Below, piece by piece: positions 50,447-55,936 of a stretch of 56,447 nucleotides of DNA (position 1 is its first letter; every line of letters begins with the position of its first letter). The DNA is taken from positions 1-56,447 of the forward strand of contig JANWVL010000076.1 of assembly GCA_025056655.1 (NCBI GenBank), given 5' to 3'. Made by a program: the position numbers and the translations under genes. The notes under the pieces were generated by a model. That model did no database searches, was not told where the DNA came from, and was given only the letters and a program-made list of their open reading frames with translations. The stretch is from Candidatus Methylacidiphilales bacterium. GTDB lineage: Bacteria > Verrucomicrobiota > Verrucomicrobiia > Methylacidiphilales > JANWVL01.

Positions 50447-50466
50447 TTTTAATATCAAGTCAAAAT

Positions 50467-50781
50467 CCTCCAATGCCGCATCAGAATCTTCCAATACTGC
50501 GCCAGAATCCTCCAATGCCGCATCAGAATCTTCCAATACCGCCTCAGAAACTTCCAATACCGCCTCAGAAACTTCCAATACCGCGCCAGAATCTTCCAAT
50601 ACCGCCCCAGAAACTTCCAATGCCGCCCCAGAAACTTCCAATGCCGCATCAGAATCTTCCAAGACCGCCTCAGAAACTTCCAATACCGCGCCAGAATCTT
50701 CCAATATTGCCCCAGAAACTTCCAATACTGCGTCAGAAACTTCCAATATCGCCTCCACAATCCTCAAGACCGCCTCAGCGC
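50467..50781. repeat. 21-bp minisatellite, about 15 units
   Basis: Tandem units close to CTTCCAATACCGCCTCAGAAA, each exactly 21 bp; the last unit is degenerate. Changes fall at a few positions (T/C at 2, A/G at 9, T/C at 10-11, A/C/G at 14, T/C at 15, A/T at 21). Because 21 is a multiple of three, frames stay open on both strands and would give heptad-repeat peptides. No start with SD or conserved flank supports coding. Confidence 0.9.
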
Positions 50782-50890
50782 CCTTTCATCTGCCTTCACA
50801 CACCCTCACAAAACCGACTTTTTACTATTTCAAACATAAAATCCCACCATTCCCCAATCCAGCAAACCCCTGAAGGGCCCGGTTCCCCCC

Positions 50891-51014
50891 GCGCCATCGG
50901 GGATTGGATCCGCGGACGCCGTGAAAGGCGTCCCTCCACTTGAAATGGAGGGCGCCGTTCCACCGGCGCCATGCGGGATTTCATTCGCGGACGCCGTGAA
51001 AGGCGTCCCTCCAC
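50891..51014. repeat. tandem 75-bp-period repeat with internal hairpin
   Basis: Two copies of a 49-bp core (50891-50939 and 50966-51014), 75 bp apart. Each holds GGACGCC-GTGAAA-GGCGTCC, a perfect 7-bp stem. The last 29 bases of the cores are identical. A dispersed intergenic repeat of this style is common in Verrucomicrobiota, by memory. Open frames across it are repeat artefacts. Confidence 0.8.
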
Positions 51015-51239: not shown

Positions 51240-51821
51240 TCAACTGGGTCGGGAACTGAATGCAGCAAGGACGCCATCACGGATGTGCTTGTTGAACGTG
51301 GCTTGCGCGGCAAGCACACGGCATGGGCGTTTTTGCGGATTCAGCACGCCGACCGGCAACTTCAGTTCGTTCATCACCACCTGCACTGGCGCGAGGAGGT
51401 CAGAGTCACCGCTGATGATCACCGCGCACTCAAACCGCCGGTTGTAGGCGTCGCTCAACAATTGCGTCGCCAAATTCACGTCCGAGCCTTTTTCGTCGGT
51501 CTTGATTACCCACACAAAAGCTGTCTGACCGGGCTGCGGATCAGCCAGCCGCATCTGCACCGGGTGTGTAAGGAAATGGCCGTAGAAAATTTCCAGATTG
51601 GGGATCGTTTGCAATGCGCGCAGATAGGTTTGTTGTCGGCGTGACGCCTCGGGGTCATGGGCGCGCGAACTGATTCGGGCAGTGAAATATTTGATCCGCT
51701 CGATGCGATGTTGTGGCAGCATCAATGCGCATAGCCGGGCGATGTTCAGCCACTTGTAAGCAGTGCCCTTGACGCAGCCGTAATAGAGGTTGAACGCATC
51801 CACGTAAACGAACGTTTTCAT
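51240..51821 (-). CDS. NYN-domain (PIN-like) protein, probably frameshifted near its C-terminus
   Basis: 193 aa from ATG 51821. FVYVDAFNLYYG, EKGSDVNLATQLLSDAYN and VIISGDSDLLAPV carry the acidic residues of NYN/LabA nucleases, which act on RNA. The annotated frame ends at 51240 with an odd tail. Shifting frame near 51258 gives QFPTQLTDAKGTFSKPASW and a stop at 51199-51201, which resembles, from memory, the usual C-terminus of the family. A one-base deletion or a sequencing error is likely. The catalytic part is intact either way. Repeats flank it downstream. Possible roles are toxin-like or RNA decay; unknown. Confidence 0.72.
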   Translation of the reverse strand: MKTFVYVDAFNLYYGCVKGTAYKWLNIARLCALMLPQHRIERIKYFTARISSRAHDPEASRRQQTYLRALQTIPNLEIFYGHFLTHPVQMRLADPQPGQTAFVWVIKTDEKGSDVNLATQLLSDAYNRRFECAVIISGDSDLLAPVQVVMNELKLPVGVLNPQKRPCRVLAAQATFNKHIRDGVLAAFSSRPS

Positions 51822-51836
51822 CAGCACCCAACCCGC

Positions 51837-51870
51837 AAAAAACAGGGGTTGCGTTTTGCAACGCAGCCCC
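51837..51870 (-). terminator. terminator-like hairpin in the NYN gene leader
   Basis: On the minus strand GGGG-C-TGCGTT (51870-51860) pairs with AACGCA-A-CCCC (51855-51845) across a GCAA-containing loop and is followed by TGTTTTTT. This is an intrinsic terminator shape, only 15 nt before the NYN start codon. It could end transcripts arriving from the helicase genes or act as an attenuator. Confidence 0.5.
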
Positions 51871-51908
51871 GCGCCTTCGCTGTCAAAACGGGGAAGATTA
51901 TCAATGTC

Positions 51909-51937
51909 ATCGTTAACGATATCGGATAAAGTGTCAA
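51909..51937 (-). promoter_or_regulatory. candidate promoter with palindromic operator before NYN gene
   Basis: A perfect TTGACA lies at 51937-51932 on the minus strand. ATCGTTAACGAT, a perfect 12-bp palindrome (51920-51909), begins 11 bp downstream and would cover the -10 position (AACGAT at 17-bp spacing, poor match). Transcription from here would run through the leader hairpin into the NYN gene. Confidence 0.35.
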
Positions 51938-52301
51938 ACCTTCTCCTCAAGCGACATTGTCCATTTTTCATCTCGCACGTCACCCAAGCTTTTTTGAGCC
52001 AAGCTCAGACAATCGAAAAACGTCTCGACAAAATGCCTCCCAATCCCTTGCCATCACATTCCGCGCATGAGCTCCGACTCAAGCACTGTGACCATTGCCC
52101 CCGCTTCTTCCCGCAAGACTCTCAGGAATCAACACTCCGTAATTCCCCTGCTAAGTCGCTACTAAAAACGTCTCTCCATCCTTCCCGCCGGGTTTTCTCT
52201 CTTCAACATGTGATTGAGATTTTCCACTAACTCATCGTCCAAAAGGATAGCCAATTCAGGCCCTCACAAACCGACGTCTGCCAGTGTGCTCTTACCGCGC
52301 C
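51938..52301. other. intergenic stretch without a supported gene
   Basis: About 360 bp between the helicase stop and the NYN promoter. A 31-codon minus-strand fragment ending at about 52163 reads LAILLDDELVENLNHMLKRENPAGRMERRF in two pieces, with no credible start; it may be a remnant of a small protein. Plus-strand frames here lack motifs. No RNA gene is recognised. Confidence 0.4.
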
Positions 52302-53519
52302 TCACAGAAAATCCAACCCTGAAGACTCCCTCTCCGACGACTCCGGAGGAGCAGACTGAACTGACGCATGCTCAAAACGTTGTATCGTCAATCCTCGCTC
52401 CGCCTCCATCCGCTTCAAATCGGCCAATAACGGTATACTATCCCCAACCACAGTACTCATATACACCCAGCGCGTAGCTCGCGTAACAGCTACAAATAAC
52501 AAACGCCGCTGTCGTGCATCCGTTGTGCGCGGAAAAGATTCTGCCACCAGCCGCGGCAACAGCACCGAGTCAAACGTCAATCCCTTCGCACTGTGATATG
52601 TGATCAACTTCGGCCGACTCGACCCAAAATCCAGATTTTCCTGCGTCTCAACTTCAATTCCCGCCGCTGCCAACCCCTTTGCAAAACCAAACACCTGCCG
52701 CCGAAGCGGAAACAGCACCGCCACCCTCTGGTCTGTGAGCAGACGCTGACGAAGCACTTCAGTGAGCCGGCGTTTCTCGTCTTGAAACGATGCTGCCTCA
52801 TAGAGCAACGGCAGTTCTCGTTCCCTCTGCTCCGTGCGCACCTGTCGAAGATACTGTTCGCGTTCTGCAGCTTCCTGCAGAAATTGCGCCGCCAAGCGAG
52901 CCACAAAGGGCGAGCATCGATATGCATCCAAAAGCGTCATGTTGCGCCGACGTAGCCCTAAAGCATTAAGGATCTCTGTCTCGCAGCAGCCGCGCTCGTA
53001 AATTTGTTGCTTATGGTCCAGGCACACCGTCACGTGCCCAGCTATCCGCCGCAACATATCGAAGTTAGCAGACTCAAGGTCTTGCCCTTCGTCCACCAAC
53101 ACAAAATCGTATAGCGGTAATCGAACTGTGCCGCTTGCTATTCTCTGCGCGACAGCCGTCCGAATCGCCTCAAAATCCGGTCGCTTAGCTACCGCATCCC
53201 ACGGCACCCGTGAGTTGATATGGCGCTCATAAAAACCCTTGCACCAGTCGTCAAAAGTACTCACAACCTGTTCCGGCAACCCAAGCAACTCAAGAGCTGA
53301 GCGAAGATAATTCTTAAGCACACCCGTAAAAACCAAAATCCGAAAACGCCCATCTGTCGATCCTAGCCGGCGTCGCAACTCCACCGCTCGATGCAGCAAT
53401 ATCTGCGTTTTGCCCGAGCCCGGCGCACCGAATATCACTTGATGCTCAGTATGCGGCAAATCAATCGCACGAAGTTGTTCAAGCGTCAATTCATTCCGAG
53501 GAATTAGCCATGTGCTCAT
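52302..53519 (-). CDS. compact superfamily I (UvrD-like) helicase / ATPase
   Basis: 405 aa, about half the size of UvrD. Walker A is GAPGSGKT (31-38), motif II is VDEGQD (142-147), then DHKQQIY (motif III-like), LLDAYRCS (motif IV-like), YHSAKGLTFDSV (motif V) and LLFVAVTRAT (motif VI). Subdomains 1B and 2B are reduced or missing, and no nuclease domain is seen. Start and Hsp70 stop overlap as ATGA (53516-53519), so it is translated coupled to the chaperone. Likely a nucleic-acid-dependent ATPase; partner and substrate unknown. A defence role is possible but unproven. Confidence 0.85.
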   Translation of the reverse strand: MSTWLIPRNELTLEQLRAIDLPHTEHQVIFGAPGSGKTQILLHRAVELRRRLGSTDGRFRILVFTGVLKNYLRSALELLGLPEQVVSTFDDWCKGFYERHINSRVPWDAVAKRPDFEAIRTAVAQRIASGTVRLPLYDFVLVDEGQDLESANFDMLRRIAGHVTVCLDHKQQIYERGCCETEILNALGLRRRNMTLLDAYRCSPFVARLAAQFLQEAAEREQYLRQVRTEQRERELPLLYEAASFQDEKRRLTEVLRQRLLTDQRVAVLFPLRRQVFGFAKGLAAAGIEVETQENLDFGSSRPKLITYHSAKGLTFDSVLLPRLVAESFPRTTDARQRRLLFVAVTRATRWVYMSTVVGDSIPLLADLKRMEAERGLTIQRFEHASVQSAPPESSERESSGLDFL

Positions 53520-55936
53520 ATCTTCCGAAGTGCAGGAGCAATCTCCGGCAGCAAACCACCAGACTCAACATCTCTCCCTTTGCCTGCCCGCTTACGACGA
53601 CGCTGCTCAGCCGTGGCCTCCTCTAGAAGCGCAGCATCAGATTGCATCTGCGCAGCAGTCTGCAACCAGCCCAGTTCCCAATCGCTCAGTGCCCTCACCG
53701 GTCCATACCGCTTCAATGCCTCTGCTAGCGCCTGATTGGCTTCCTGGCGATTGCCCCGCTTCTCCAGTATTTGCGCCAATAACACAAAATAGGGCGGGTC
53801 CTCCTCCACGGCAAGCGCCTCGCGGATGGTCGCCTCCGCTGCCTCTAACAAGCCACGCTTCCACTGCGACAGCGCTAAATTGAATAAAGACCCAGCCCAA
53901 TCCGGCTTAGCCTGAAACGCCTCCCGATAAGTCTTCTCTTGACGCTCCCAATCTTTCTTTTCACCATACCGTATCCCAAGCGAATTCAGCAAACTCGCAT
54001 CTGGCCGGCCCTTCCGTCGCAAAGCTTGCACTAGATAATCGATCGCCTTGTCAAGCTGCCCTAGCTCAGCATAATCGTCAGACAACTTTCTTAACGTATC
54101 CACAATCTCCTCCTCCGCCACTTTACCCGTGCGCAAGTTCTCCTCCACCTCCTCAATACGCTGTCGAGTCGCGTGAGGATTCACTACCAACGTTAACGGA
54201 TGTTCCACTGTGCATGCAAATGGCTCTGTCTCTGGCTGATCGCGAAGGGTTAACTCCAAATGCAAGCATTGGTTGGCATCCATTCGCACGCCCAGACGCA
54301 ACGGAGTGCCACGATTCACCGGTGCACGAATCTGCCACGTCGCTGCAAACACCGGTCGCGCATCACTCCCAGCGACAAGCTCCACCCGCAGCGGCACCGT
54401 GCCCACCAGCGCCGTCTGCGGCACCACAAGCTCAAAATGCTCAGCACTTCGGTCAGGACTAGGAAATGGCAACGTCGCACCCTTCGGCACCAACTCCAGC
54501 ATCCCCGAAGCCACCCGCAACGCGATCGCATCTTGCGCCACCGGCTGCACAAGCCCTCGCCCATAAAGCGCTAACGCCAACGCATGGTACGCTGCCCCAC
54601 GAGCAACCGCCACCTGTGTCGCATCCCGATCTTCGTATATCAAAAGACGCCCAGATCGCAGATAAGACCGTACCGCCTCCTGCACCTGTGGAATTAAACT
54701 GCTCCCCCCCACCATCAGACAAAAATCCACATCTGCTGCCTGCAATCCAGCCCGCTCAAGCGCATCAGACAGCGGAGCAAAAATTGAGCACGTCATGTGA
54801 TACTCCGTCTCCCGAGCGTACAGCAAATCCCTATCCAAAAATGGCTTGAGCAATTCCTCAAAACGCGCTGCTGTTAGCCGCGGTGAACGCAACGTCAACG
54901 TCGGATATCCAGGACACGGACACGACCACGACCCCGGATGCGTCTTGACTATCTCAGTCTTATCGGCATCCGCATAACGACCAAAACTCTGCAACCGCGC
55001 AATCTCGATACACAACCCCACTTTCAGCGACTCAGCTATCCCTAGCAGAGCTGGTTCTAAATGTCGCTTGCGCTGGTCAAAATCTAGGCTCTCCACCTTG
55101 AGACCATTTTGCTCGGCAACCTGCGGAATAAGTTCCTCATGGACAATCGCAGCATCAATATCACCCCCACCAAGCCGATGATAACGCGACACCGCCAGCG
55201 GCGCTATCTCCAGCTGCCCACTTCTCTTACTTAAATCCAAGCGAAACACTGCCACATCGCACGTGCCCCCTCCAAAGTCGAAGACAACCACATTCTGCGT
55301 ACCACGCAAATCCGCCAGCAAAGCTTCCCGATGCGTTACCAAATAATCGATAAAGGCTGCCACCGGCTCATCCAAAAGATCCCCAGCCTGCAAGTTCATC
55401 CCGGCCATCTCTGCAGCGCGAAACGTATCGTGGCGTTGCGCCAGTTGAAACGACGCCGGCACCGTAACAACCGTGCGAGCCACTGACACCTCATGGGCCG
55501 TCTCCGCAGCAGCTTTGAGAAAGCTCAACACTCTCCCCCCAATTTCCGCCGCACTGCGAAAGCCAGGCGGAGCCAGATGATACGTCCGCCGCGCGCCTAT
55601 CTCATTTTTGCACTCATAAAAAATATCTCTGTTTCGGCGCAACCGAGGATTTGCACGCAACCGTTTTGCCCCCTCGCCCACCCAAACCTGCCCCCCATGC
55701 AACGCCACCACCGACGGCACGAGCACATGGATGTAGGGCCCTGTATCTGTCGGCTGTTCAATTTCCAAACATCGTGCAACCGGCGGCTGGTTTTGATCCC
55801 GGCACCATATCACTTCAGCCACTGTAGAATTAGTCGTCCCCAAGTCTATCCCCAAAACTCGAACTGGCAATGGCACCGTCTGCGGTATCCCATCCAGCCG
55901 GCTCAGTATCAAAGCAGTGACCTGATCCGATGACAT
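53516..55936 (-). CDS. Hsp70-family ATPase with C-terminal TPR domain
   Basis: 806 aa. The actin-like ATPase core has GIDLGTTNS (29-37), DEPVAAFIDY, FDFGGGT (219-225) and MVGGSSLIPQV (408-417). A Cys-containing insertion (SWSCPCPGYPTL, near 336-347) is unusual. A short beta-rich region (about 470-600) replaces the normal substrate-binding domain, then about four TPR units (625-765) and a basic tail. It is not the housekeeping DnaK: there is no grpE or dnaJ neighbour and no EEVD-like or lid region. It is the first gene of a two-gene unit with the SF1 helicase. Confidence 0.87.
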   Translation of the reverse strand: MSSDQVTALILSRLDGIPQTVPLPVRVLGIDLGTTNSTVAEVIWCRDQNQPPVARCLEIEQPTDTGPYIHVLVPSVVALHGGQVWVGEGAKRLRANPRLRRNRDIFYECKNEIGARRTYHLAPPGFRSAAEIGGRVLSFLKAAAETAHEVSVARTVVTVPASFQLAQRHDTFRAAEMAGMNLQAGDLLDEPVAAFIDYLVTHREALLADLRGTQNVVVFDFGGGTCDVAVFRLDLSKRSGQLEIAPLAVSRYHRLGGGDIDAAIVHEELIPQVAEQNGLKVESLDFDQRKRHLEPALLGIAESLKVGLCIEIARLQSFGRYADADKTEIVKTHPGSWSCPCPGYPTLTLRSPRLTAARFEELLKPFLDRDLLYARETEYHMTCSIFAPLSDALERAGLQAADVDFCLMVGGSSLIPQVQEAVRSYLRSGRLLIYEDRDATQVAVARGAAYHALALALYGRGLVQPVAQDAIALRVASGMLELVPKGATLPFPSPDRSAEHFELVVPQTALVGTVPLRVELVAGSDARPVFAATWQIRAPVNRGTPLRLGVRMDANQCLHLELTLRDQPETEPFACTVEHPLTLVVNPHATRQRIEEVEENLRTGKVAEEEIVDTLRKLSDDYAELGQLDKAIDYLVQALRRKGRPDASLLNSLGIRYGEKKDWERQEKTYREAFQAKPDWAGSLFNLALSQWKRGLLEAAEATIREALAVEEDPPYFVLLAQILEKRGNRQEANQALAEALKRYGPVRALSDWELGWLQTAAQMQSDAALLEEATAEQRRRKRAGKGRDVESGGLLPEIAPALRKI

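Follow-up and report, generated by a model that had tools for sequence, protein, structure and literature searches.

A chaperone-helicase gene pair in a Methylacidiphilales genome

The window analysed here, that is, the whole stretch of DNA under study, comprises the 56,447 nucleotides of contig JANWVL010000076.1 (positions 1 to 56,447, forward strand) from Candidatus Methylacidiphilales bacterium (Verrucomicrobiota, assembly GCA_025056655.1). Two overlapping genes on its minus strand encode an Hsp70 in which tetratricopeptide repeats (TPR) replace the lid of the substrate-binding domain (SBD), and a half-size, UvrD-like ATPase of superfamily 1 (SF1). A first-pass annotation had given the span of the pair as 53516-55936, which fits the Hsp70 gene, whereas the helicase gene lies outside these coordinates. 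The features of the pair, all on the minus strand, are:

55936..53516: Hsp70-TPR coding sequence, 806 amino acids (aa); open reading frame (ORF), Pfam HSP70/TPR, AlphaFold2
54563..55864: Hsp70 nucleotide-binding domain (NBD), residues ~25-458; AlphaFold2 and Foldseek
54203..54526: SBD-beta sandwich, residues ~471-578; AlphaFold2 strands, aligned with DnaK NBD plus SBD-beta structures
53579..54172: TPR solenoid replacing the SBD-alpha lid, residues ~589-786; Pfam, AlphaFold2
53546..53551: conserved Leu-Pro close to the C-terminal end of the Hsp70 tail; L796 88%, P797 75%
53516..53519: ATGA overlap of helicase start codon and Hsp70 stop codon; read from the sequence
53519..52302: half-size UvrD-like SF1 ATPase coding sequence (1A and 2A core only), 405 aa; ORF, Pfam, AlphaFold2, structure search
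53406..53429: Walker A, GAPGSGKT; G31, G34, G36 and K37 in 58/58 homologues, S35 in 56/58
53079..53093: Walker B (motif II), DEGQD; D143 and Q146 in 58/58 homologues, E144 and D147 in 57/58
52479..52481: motif VI arginine R347; 58/58 homologues
52305..52322: acidic-hydrophobic C-terminal tail SGLDFL, proposed docking peptide; comparison of Hsp70-partnered helicases

Pfam assigned HSP70 (2.9e-32) and several TPR families to the 806-aa protein. The AlphaFold2 model (predicted local distance difference test, pLDDT, 90; predicted template modelling score, pTM, 0.86) consists of NBD, SBD-beta and then a TPR solenoid, as the first-pass annotation had supposed. Foldseek retrieved DnaK/Hsp70 structures with E values down to 1e-27, and the DnaK NBD plus SBD-beta structure 7krv matched the model with a TMt of 0.74. 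K110, E190, D220 and T225, which we take by motif to be the equivalents of DnaK K70, E171, D194 and T199, are nearly invariant in an alignment of 75 Hsp70-TPR sequences, and the inner (helix A) asparagines of the TPR arm are conserved as well (N651 92%, N686 100%). The protein thus has the hallmarks of the Hsp70 superfamily, an NBD with its catalytic residues and SBD-beta, and shares the fold of these two domains with DnaK and HscA. It differs from them in having TPR helices where the alpha-helical lid is expected and in forming a separate deep branch of the tree, and it is no canonical DnaK, scoring ~110 bits with the NCBIfam DnaK model against a cut-off of 648. PADLOC holds no model for it (best match 0.014). 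The Hsp70-TPR of Antarctobacter (L004:9449-12328; loci are numbered with the prefix L) is extended at its N terminus, and this extension matches HEPN_Swt1 weakly (0.0015), which suggests that an RNase may be built into some members.

The 405-aa protein matched UvrD_C (4.9e-15) and UvrD-helicase (2.4e-11) in Pfam, and its AlphaFold2 model (pLDDT 92, pTM 0.87) shows a two-RecA core as in PcrA/UvrD, which are also its best structural matches. Since the 405 residues align to targets of 620-650 residues only with large insertions in the latter, domains 1B and 2B must be missing. Motifs Q, I, II, III, IV, V and VI of the SF1 core are all present, with Q15, GxxGSGK, DExQD, D168/Q171, R201, K312-G313 and R347 conserved in the alignment of helicase homologues; the earlier description of an ATPase with all helicase motifs and little else is therefore apt, as is that of the ATGA (53519..53516), which serves as start and stop. 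Without 1B and 2B, and with 44 bits against the NCBIfam DNA helicase II cut-off of 965, the protein is not a full-length UvrD, Rep or PcrA, and PADLOC returned remote matches only. Neither protein of the pair belongs to a curated family, because both fall far short of every NCBIfam cut-off.

Distribution and co-inheritance

When an alignment of three Hsp70 members was used to scan one genome per species, 80 loci were obtained, nearly all of them in metagenome-assembled genomes in which ORFs were called mechanically. The hosts belong to the Acidobacteriota, Verrucomicrobiota, Deltaproteobacteria, Nitrospirae, Chloroflexota, Armatimonadota, Gemmatimonadota, Hydrogenedentota, Bacteroidota, Dependentiae, Gracilibacteria and others, and while many loci stem from environmental metagenomes, gut and marine bacteria are also represented. 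A locus was considered testable when it contained an intact Hsp70 gene followed by at least 300 bases, and a gene was taken as the next one when it lay within 400 bases. By this measure, an SF1 gene directly follows the Hsp70-TPR gene in 60 of 71 testable loci. The proteins fall into clade A, 36-80% identical to the Hsp70-TPR of the window, with the exact 4-base overlap in 23 of 44 pairs, and clade B (21-29%), mostly Bacteroidota, in which the genes are spaced by -17 to +32 bases. Most clade B loci with enough sequence have a third gene after the pair; its products form at least two families, for which neither a Pfam match nor mutual profile similarity was found. The distances of Hsp70 and helicase are closely correlated in a Mantel test (r 0.96 for 57 pairs; 0.83 in clade A, 0.98 in clade B), the best of 2000 permutations reaching 0.48. 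Neither the pair nor its overlap is thus local to this genome, and the two proteins co-evolve.

Hsp70-TPR loci that lack the helicase gene are mostly confined to a few branches. In some of them, the next genes encode an HD-domain protein (L028:2178-5135 and L029:8001-10903, the latter with a 4-base overlap), a metallophosphatase in the SF1 position (L058), or an HKD-SNF2 protein and a large methyltransferase (MTase)-related protein (L048:6165-15399, with a 1118-aa MTase-cluster gene and no SF1 gene). L006 (Cupriavidus KK10) was dropped from the family because it is an ordinary DnaK with a GroEL-like gene next to it. In viral contigs, the single window protein found no relative, and the family alignment found one true member (L102:4434-6815, 48%) on an IMG/VR contig of 6.9 kb. 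The other 79 viral loci, with matches of 24-31%, were set aside because they look like ordinary viral DnaK-type Hsp70s.

Hsp70-TPR was detected in none of 60 genomes of the same order, and its closest relatives reside in other phyla (Anaerolineales 79%, Methylohalobius 66%, Chthonomonadaceae 64%), the nearest groups being Chloroflexota, Gammaproteobacteria, Armatimonadota and Acidobacteriota. Plasmid-borne copies occur in Persicobacter and in Antarctobacter, where the genes lie between IS6 and IS256 transposases. Because none of the 60 same-order genomes carries it, the pair evidently moves horizontally.

A conserved C-terminal tail of the helicase

The helicase ends in a disordered linker followed by an acidic-hydrophobic tip, with LDFL, LDLL, DDLF, DYDMPF and EFDDIPL as variants. 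The final residue is L, F or I in 55 of 57 (96%) Hsp70-partnered helicases, compared with 17% of neighbouring ORFs; when at least two acidic residues among the last ten are also demanded, the figures are 84% of the 57 and 4%, respectively. Note that these counts are not independent, because the helicase sequences are related. The tip is kept between the clades at ~25% identity, while the linker is not. The tip is absent from six half-size SF1 proteins that are partnered by a kinase, by DUF1998 or by an unknown protein, which favours a role of the tail that is specific to Hsp70.

The inner-helix asparagines occupy the sites where extended peptides are bound by TPR domains. On the basis of the conservation of the tail across clades and of Asn651 and Asn686 in the TPR arm, we therefore propose that the helicase tail docks on the arm. 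The TPR arm is regarded as a full carboxylate-clamp TPR only as a possibility, the two asparagines alone being conserved.

Association with defence genes

Genes for anti-phage functions had been suggested as informative neighbours, and such genes were indeed found. Those next to clade A pairs include genes for Type IIG restriction-modification (R-M) enzymes, HKD-SNF2, DrmD, NERD-UvrD, HamA/HamB (Hachiman), AbiEi (AbiE), YhcG nucleases, Fic and Cas6. Eight defence-type proteins were used as queries against the flanks of 62 pair loci (597 kb) and against 40 control stretches (544 kb), many of them contig starts, from pair-carrying genomes. Type IIG/PglX or SNF2 genes were present at 16 of the 62 pair loci and in none of the 40 control stretches; after removal of the six loci from which queries had been taken, the numbers were 10/56 and 0/40. 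Within the phylum to which the window belongs, only 20 of 145 genomes have a Type ISP MTase domain, so the excess of R-M neighbours is not background. The window's own genome contains a fragment of a Type ISP methyltransferase with two in-frame TAG stops (G000:C146:92-580), likely a decayed R-M gene.

At three loci, the pair and a third gene are inserted between pglX and pglZ of an operon resembling BREX (bacteriophage exclusion). In Gillisia (L085), the order is BrxC, PglX, Hsp70, SF1, third gene, PglZ, BrxL, and the four BREX genes reach PADLOC scores of 1351, 1178, 877 and 978 bits. The layout is the same at the other two loci, L080 and L075, both of which match the PglX and PglZ models. 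Around the pair in the window, as far as the contig reaches, there is no pglZ, pglX or brxC. The pair is a guest of BREX rather than one of its components.

Related half-size SF1 modules

Other half-size SF1 ATPases, 25-27% identical to the helicase of the window, are paired with Ser/Thr kinases or with a large helicase and DUF1998, and an unannotated gene often follows in both types:

L183:4666-8662, L005:8582-11146 (Cupriavidus), L230:2589-6518 (Rhizobium): operons of Ser/Thr kinase and half-size SF1 (plus third gene), an apparent sister module
L231:1-7824 (Deinococcus plasmid); L184 (MrfA Zn-binding match): operon of large helicase, DUF1998, SF1 and hypothetical protein

The kinase operons resemble the Hsp70-TPR pairs in that the half-size SF1 gene is the second one and a third gene is often present; they differ in having a kinase where Hsp70-TPR stands and in lacking the tail. 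We found no published name for them. The Rhizobium copy lies between transposases beside a DUF1837 (HamA-type) gene and a DEAD helicase gene. When the helicase model was run over 289 genomes of the same phylum, no second Hsp70 pair was detected but relatives of the kinase and DUF1998 types were, and in one of these genomes the kinase-type operon has two 4-base overlaps. The first partner and the third protein vary while the motor stays, so that this is a modular family.

Comparison with described systems

The first-pass annotation knew of no characterised system with this pair, and this assessment holds: the pair is described neither in the database models nor in the open-access papers searched, subscription papers and most preprints lying outside this scope, and may carry a name elsewhere. 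Literature on Hsp70 together with UvrD, SF1, BREX or defence was limited to papers on CoCoNuT, HEPN and GTPase-centric systems, and the text of a survey of BREX diversity mentions neither Hsp70 nor TPR nor UvrD (PMC12839542).

The nearest published analogue is CoCoNuT type III, which combines the Hsp70-like CnuD and the SF1 helicase CnuH and requires an McrB-type GTPase and the DUF2357 protein CnuC (PMC11090510). Common to both are an Hsp70-like NBD/SBD with helical repeats co-encoded with an SF1 helicase, association with BREX and R-M, and a predicted function in defence (PMC11090510). However, the repeats of CnuD are HEAT-like and its ATPase motifs degenerate, in contrast to the TPR and retained ATPase residues of the Hsp70 studied here, and CnuH is UPF1-like with a large insertion (PMC11090510), whereas the 405-aa core studied here is a half-size motor best matching PcrA/UvrD. 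Neither the GTPase nor DUF2357 is encoded in the neighbourhood of the pair in the window. DUF2357 occurs in 3 of 22 pair-carrying genomes, in one of them less than 8 kb away on the other strand (L056), in the rest either on a different contig or at a distance of hundreds of kb.

UvrD-family helicases are also part of anti-phage systems in the form of GajB (Gabija), NERD-UvrD proteins and the ArmD of ARMADA type II (PMC12458937). The helicase of the pair is half their size, has no fused nuclease and is partnered by Hsp70-TPR, and no GajA, the ATPase-nuclease of Gabija, is encoded beside it in the window. ARMADA type II, a phage-tested system of the UvrD-family helicase ArmD, an SNF2 helicase and a PglX-like methyltransferase (PMC12458937), may serve as a functional precedent for such motors. 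GTPase-centric conflict systems use HSP70 in operons predicted to serve immunity, one class of which also has TPR proteins, but TRAFAC GTPases, tubulins or GrpE form their core and an SF1 helicase is not mentioned (PMC7159879).

Surroundings of the pair in the window

The ORFs next to the pair encode an NYN-domain protein and a small membrane protein:

51240-51983, minus strand: NYN-domain protein, PADLOC HEC-09 match 4.2e-39; same strand as the pair, >300 bases away

As its start lies more than 300 bases from the helicase gene, the NYN gene was left out of the module; as a third gene it was rejected because it does not recur among the neighbours of homologous pairs. The contig stops 511 bases upstream of the Hsp70 start. 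A location in a repeat-rich region between core genes, as initially described, is correct in so far as repeats at 50.4-51.0 kb and, beyond them, argS lie downstream, but the repeats are more than 1 kb from the pair and what lies upstream is beyond the contig end. About 15 contiguous copies of the 21-bp unit TCCAATACCGCCTCAGAAACT, with a 63-bp higher order, occupy 50460-50778 just downstream of argS and are open in several frames. An array of clustered regularly interspaced short palindromic repeats was rejected, as the copies are contiguous without spacers. A GC-rich 75-bp repeat with the palindromic core GACGCC...GGCGTC is present twice at 50874-51014. Between 44000 and 50000, the strands are strongly asymmetric in G and C (GC skew -0.46 to -0.59) over plus-strand genes for Pro-, His- and Thr-rich proteins.

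Proposed function and alternatives

The defence association of the pair is well supported, and the pair very probably represents a conserved, mobile, defence-associated unit. As a shared mobile pair found in many phyla with anti-virus neighbours, the two genes probably form a so far undescribed module with a joint anti-phage role. The notion of a nucleic-acid-sensing or phage-defence device, put forward in the first-pass annotation, is thereby partly supported, being consistent with the broad, patchy occurrence of the pair, with its horizontal transfer and copies on plasmids, with its defence neighbours and with its place inside BREX-like operons; the repair or disaggregation role suggested there has less support. 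Several observations weigh against an anti-phage module. The pair itself encodes no nuclease, the copy in the window has the NYN-domain gene and the contig end as its sole neighbours, and most clade A pairs have no recognised defence gene of the tested types in the available flank. The helicase is absent at 11 of 71 Hsp70-TPR loci; therefore, Hsp70 can work alone or some of these loci represent different families. The TPR groove has the two carboxylate-clamp asparagines but lacks the distal basic pair, so that docking of the tail is unproven.

Three other explanations have to be weighed. The pair could be an accessory regulatory subunit solely of adjacent R-M, BREX or HKD-SNF2 systems that licenses restriction or guards the host from self-restriction. 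The copies embedded in BREX, the Type IIG/PglX or SNF2 genes at 16 of 62 pair loci and the HKD-SNF2 and MTase-related genes that follow Hsp70 without SF1 in L048 speak for such a role, which nevertheless appears unlikely to us given that most loci with available flank lack such genes and that two-gene copies adjoin unrelated ones. We consider still less probable that the tail mimics the tip of single-stranded DNA-binding protein (SSB) and recruits SSB-binding repair or replication proteins of host or phage, the pair being a repair or replication-restart device with Hsp70 as remodelling factor. Some tails (DYDMPF, DYDAPF, EFDDIPL) do come near the SSB tip, which in the SSB of this genome reads EDDIPF, and the core of the helicase resembles UvrD/Rep. 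However, the usual last residue is L (LDFL, LDLL) instead of a final PF, related half-size SF1 proteins with other partners have no such tail, and patchy spread next to defence genes does not resemble a housekeeping repair gene. Equally improbable is a stress or proteostasis module, in which Hsp70 and a small motor would pull apart nascent or aggregated protein-RNA complexes and reside in islands for reasons other than phages. The catalytic core and SBD-beta of Hsp70 are intact, TPR arms are common in co-chaperones and many loci stem from environmental metagenomes, but neither DnaJ nor GrpE is among the commonest neighbour families, the pair sits between pglX and pglZ and beside R-M genes, and gut and marine bacteria carry it too.

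For the anti-phage module, we propose a mechanism that, taken as a whole, may as well be wrong as right. Computation gave the pair itself with its conservation, joint inheritance, catalytic residues, folds, tail and defence neighbours; the complex, the docking of the tail, the cue, the nucleic-acid substrate and the effector step are inferred. Translational coupling would yield both proteins in fixed proportion and as one complex, which would travel as a defence module either on its own or within R-M, HKD-SNF2 or BREX-like loci. Hsp70-TPR would be an ATP-driven sensor and scaffold with an Hsp70-like NBD/SBD-beta cycle, and its TPR arm, in place of the lid, would grip the small SF1 motor via the acidic-hydrophobic tail. 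An infection cue, for example a non-native or phage polypeptide, a protein-nucleic acid complex or a ribonucleoprotein, may be bound by SBD-beta or TPR and switch the state of Hsp70, whereupon the motor would be released or activated. Lacking 1B and 2B, the latter could work on single-stranded DNA or RNA, either as a short translocase or as an ATPase switch, and pass the target to, or activate, an effector. In clade B this effector may be the third protein, in clade A the R-M, BREX or nuclease system next to the pair. More tentatively, and with rather less than even likelihood, the pair could exemplify a chaperone-operated immune switch in which binding of infection-specific polypeptides makes the lidless Hsp70 let go of the minimal motor, so that folding state triggers nucleic-acid targeting, within a modular class of half-size SF1 motors with swappable partners (Hsp70-TPR, Ser/Thr kinase, helicase plus DUF1998) and third proteins.

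If confirmed, bacterial immunity would have an Hsp70 ATPase with intact catalytic residues for its dedicated sensor-scaffold, in a module of two genes spread over many phyla, and Hsp70-TPR would offer a specific peptide docking site. Phage-encoded DnaK-type proteins in virome contigs would then become candidates for interference. Half-size SF1 proteins whose sole annotation is 'AAA family ATPase' or 'ATP-binding domain-containing protein' would be united in one partner-swapping, defence-associated family.

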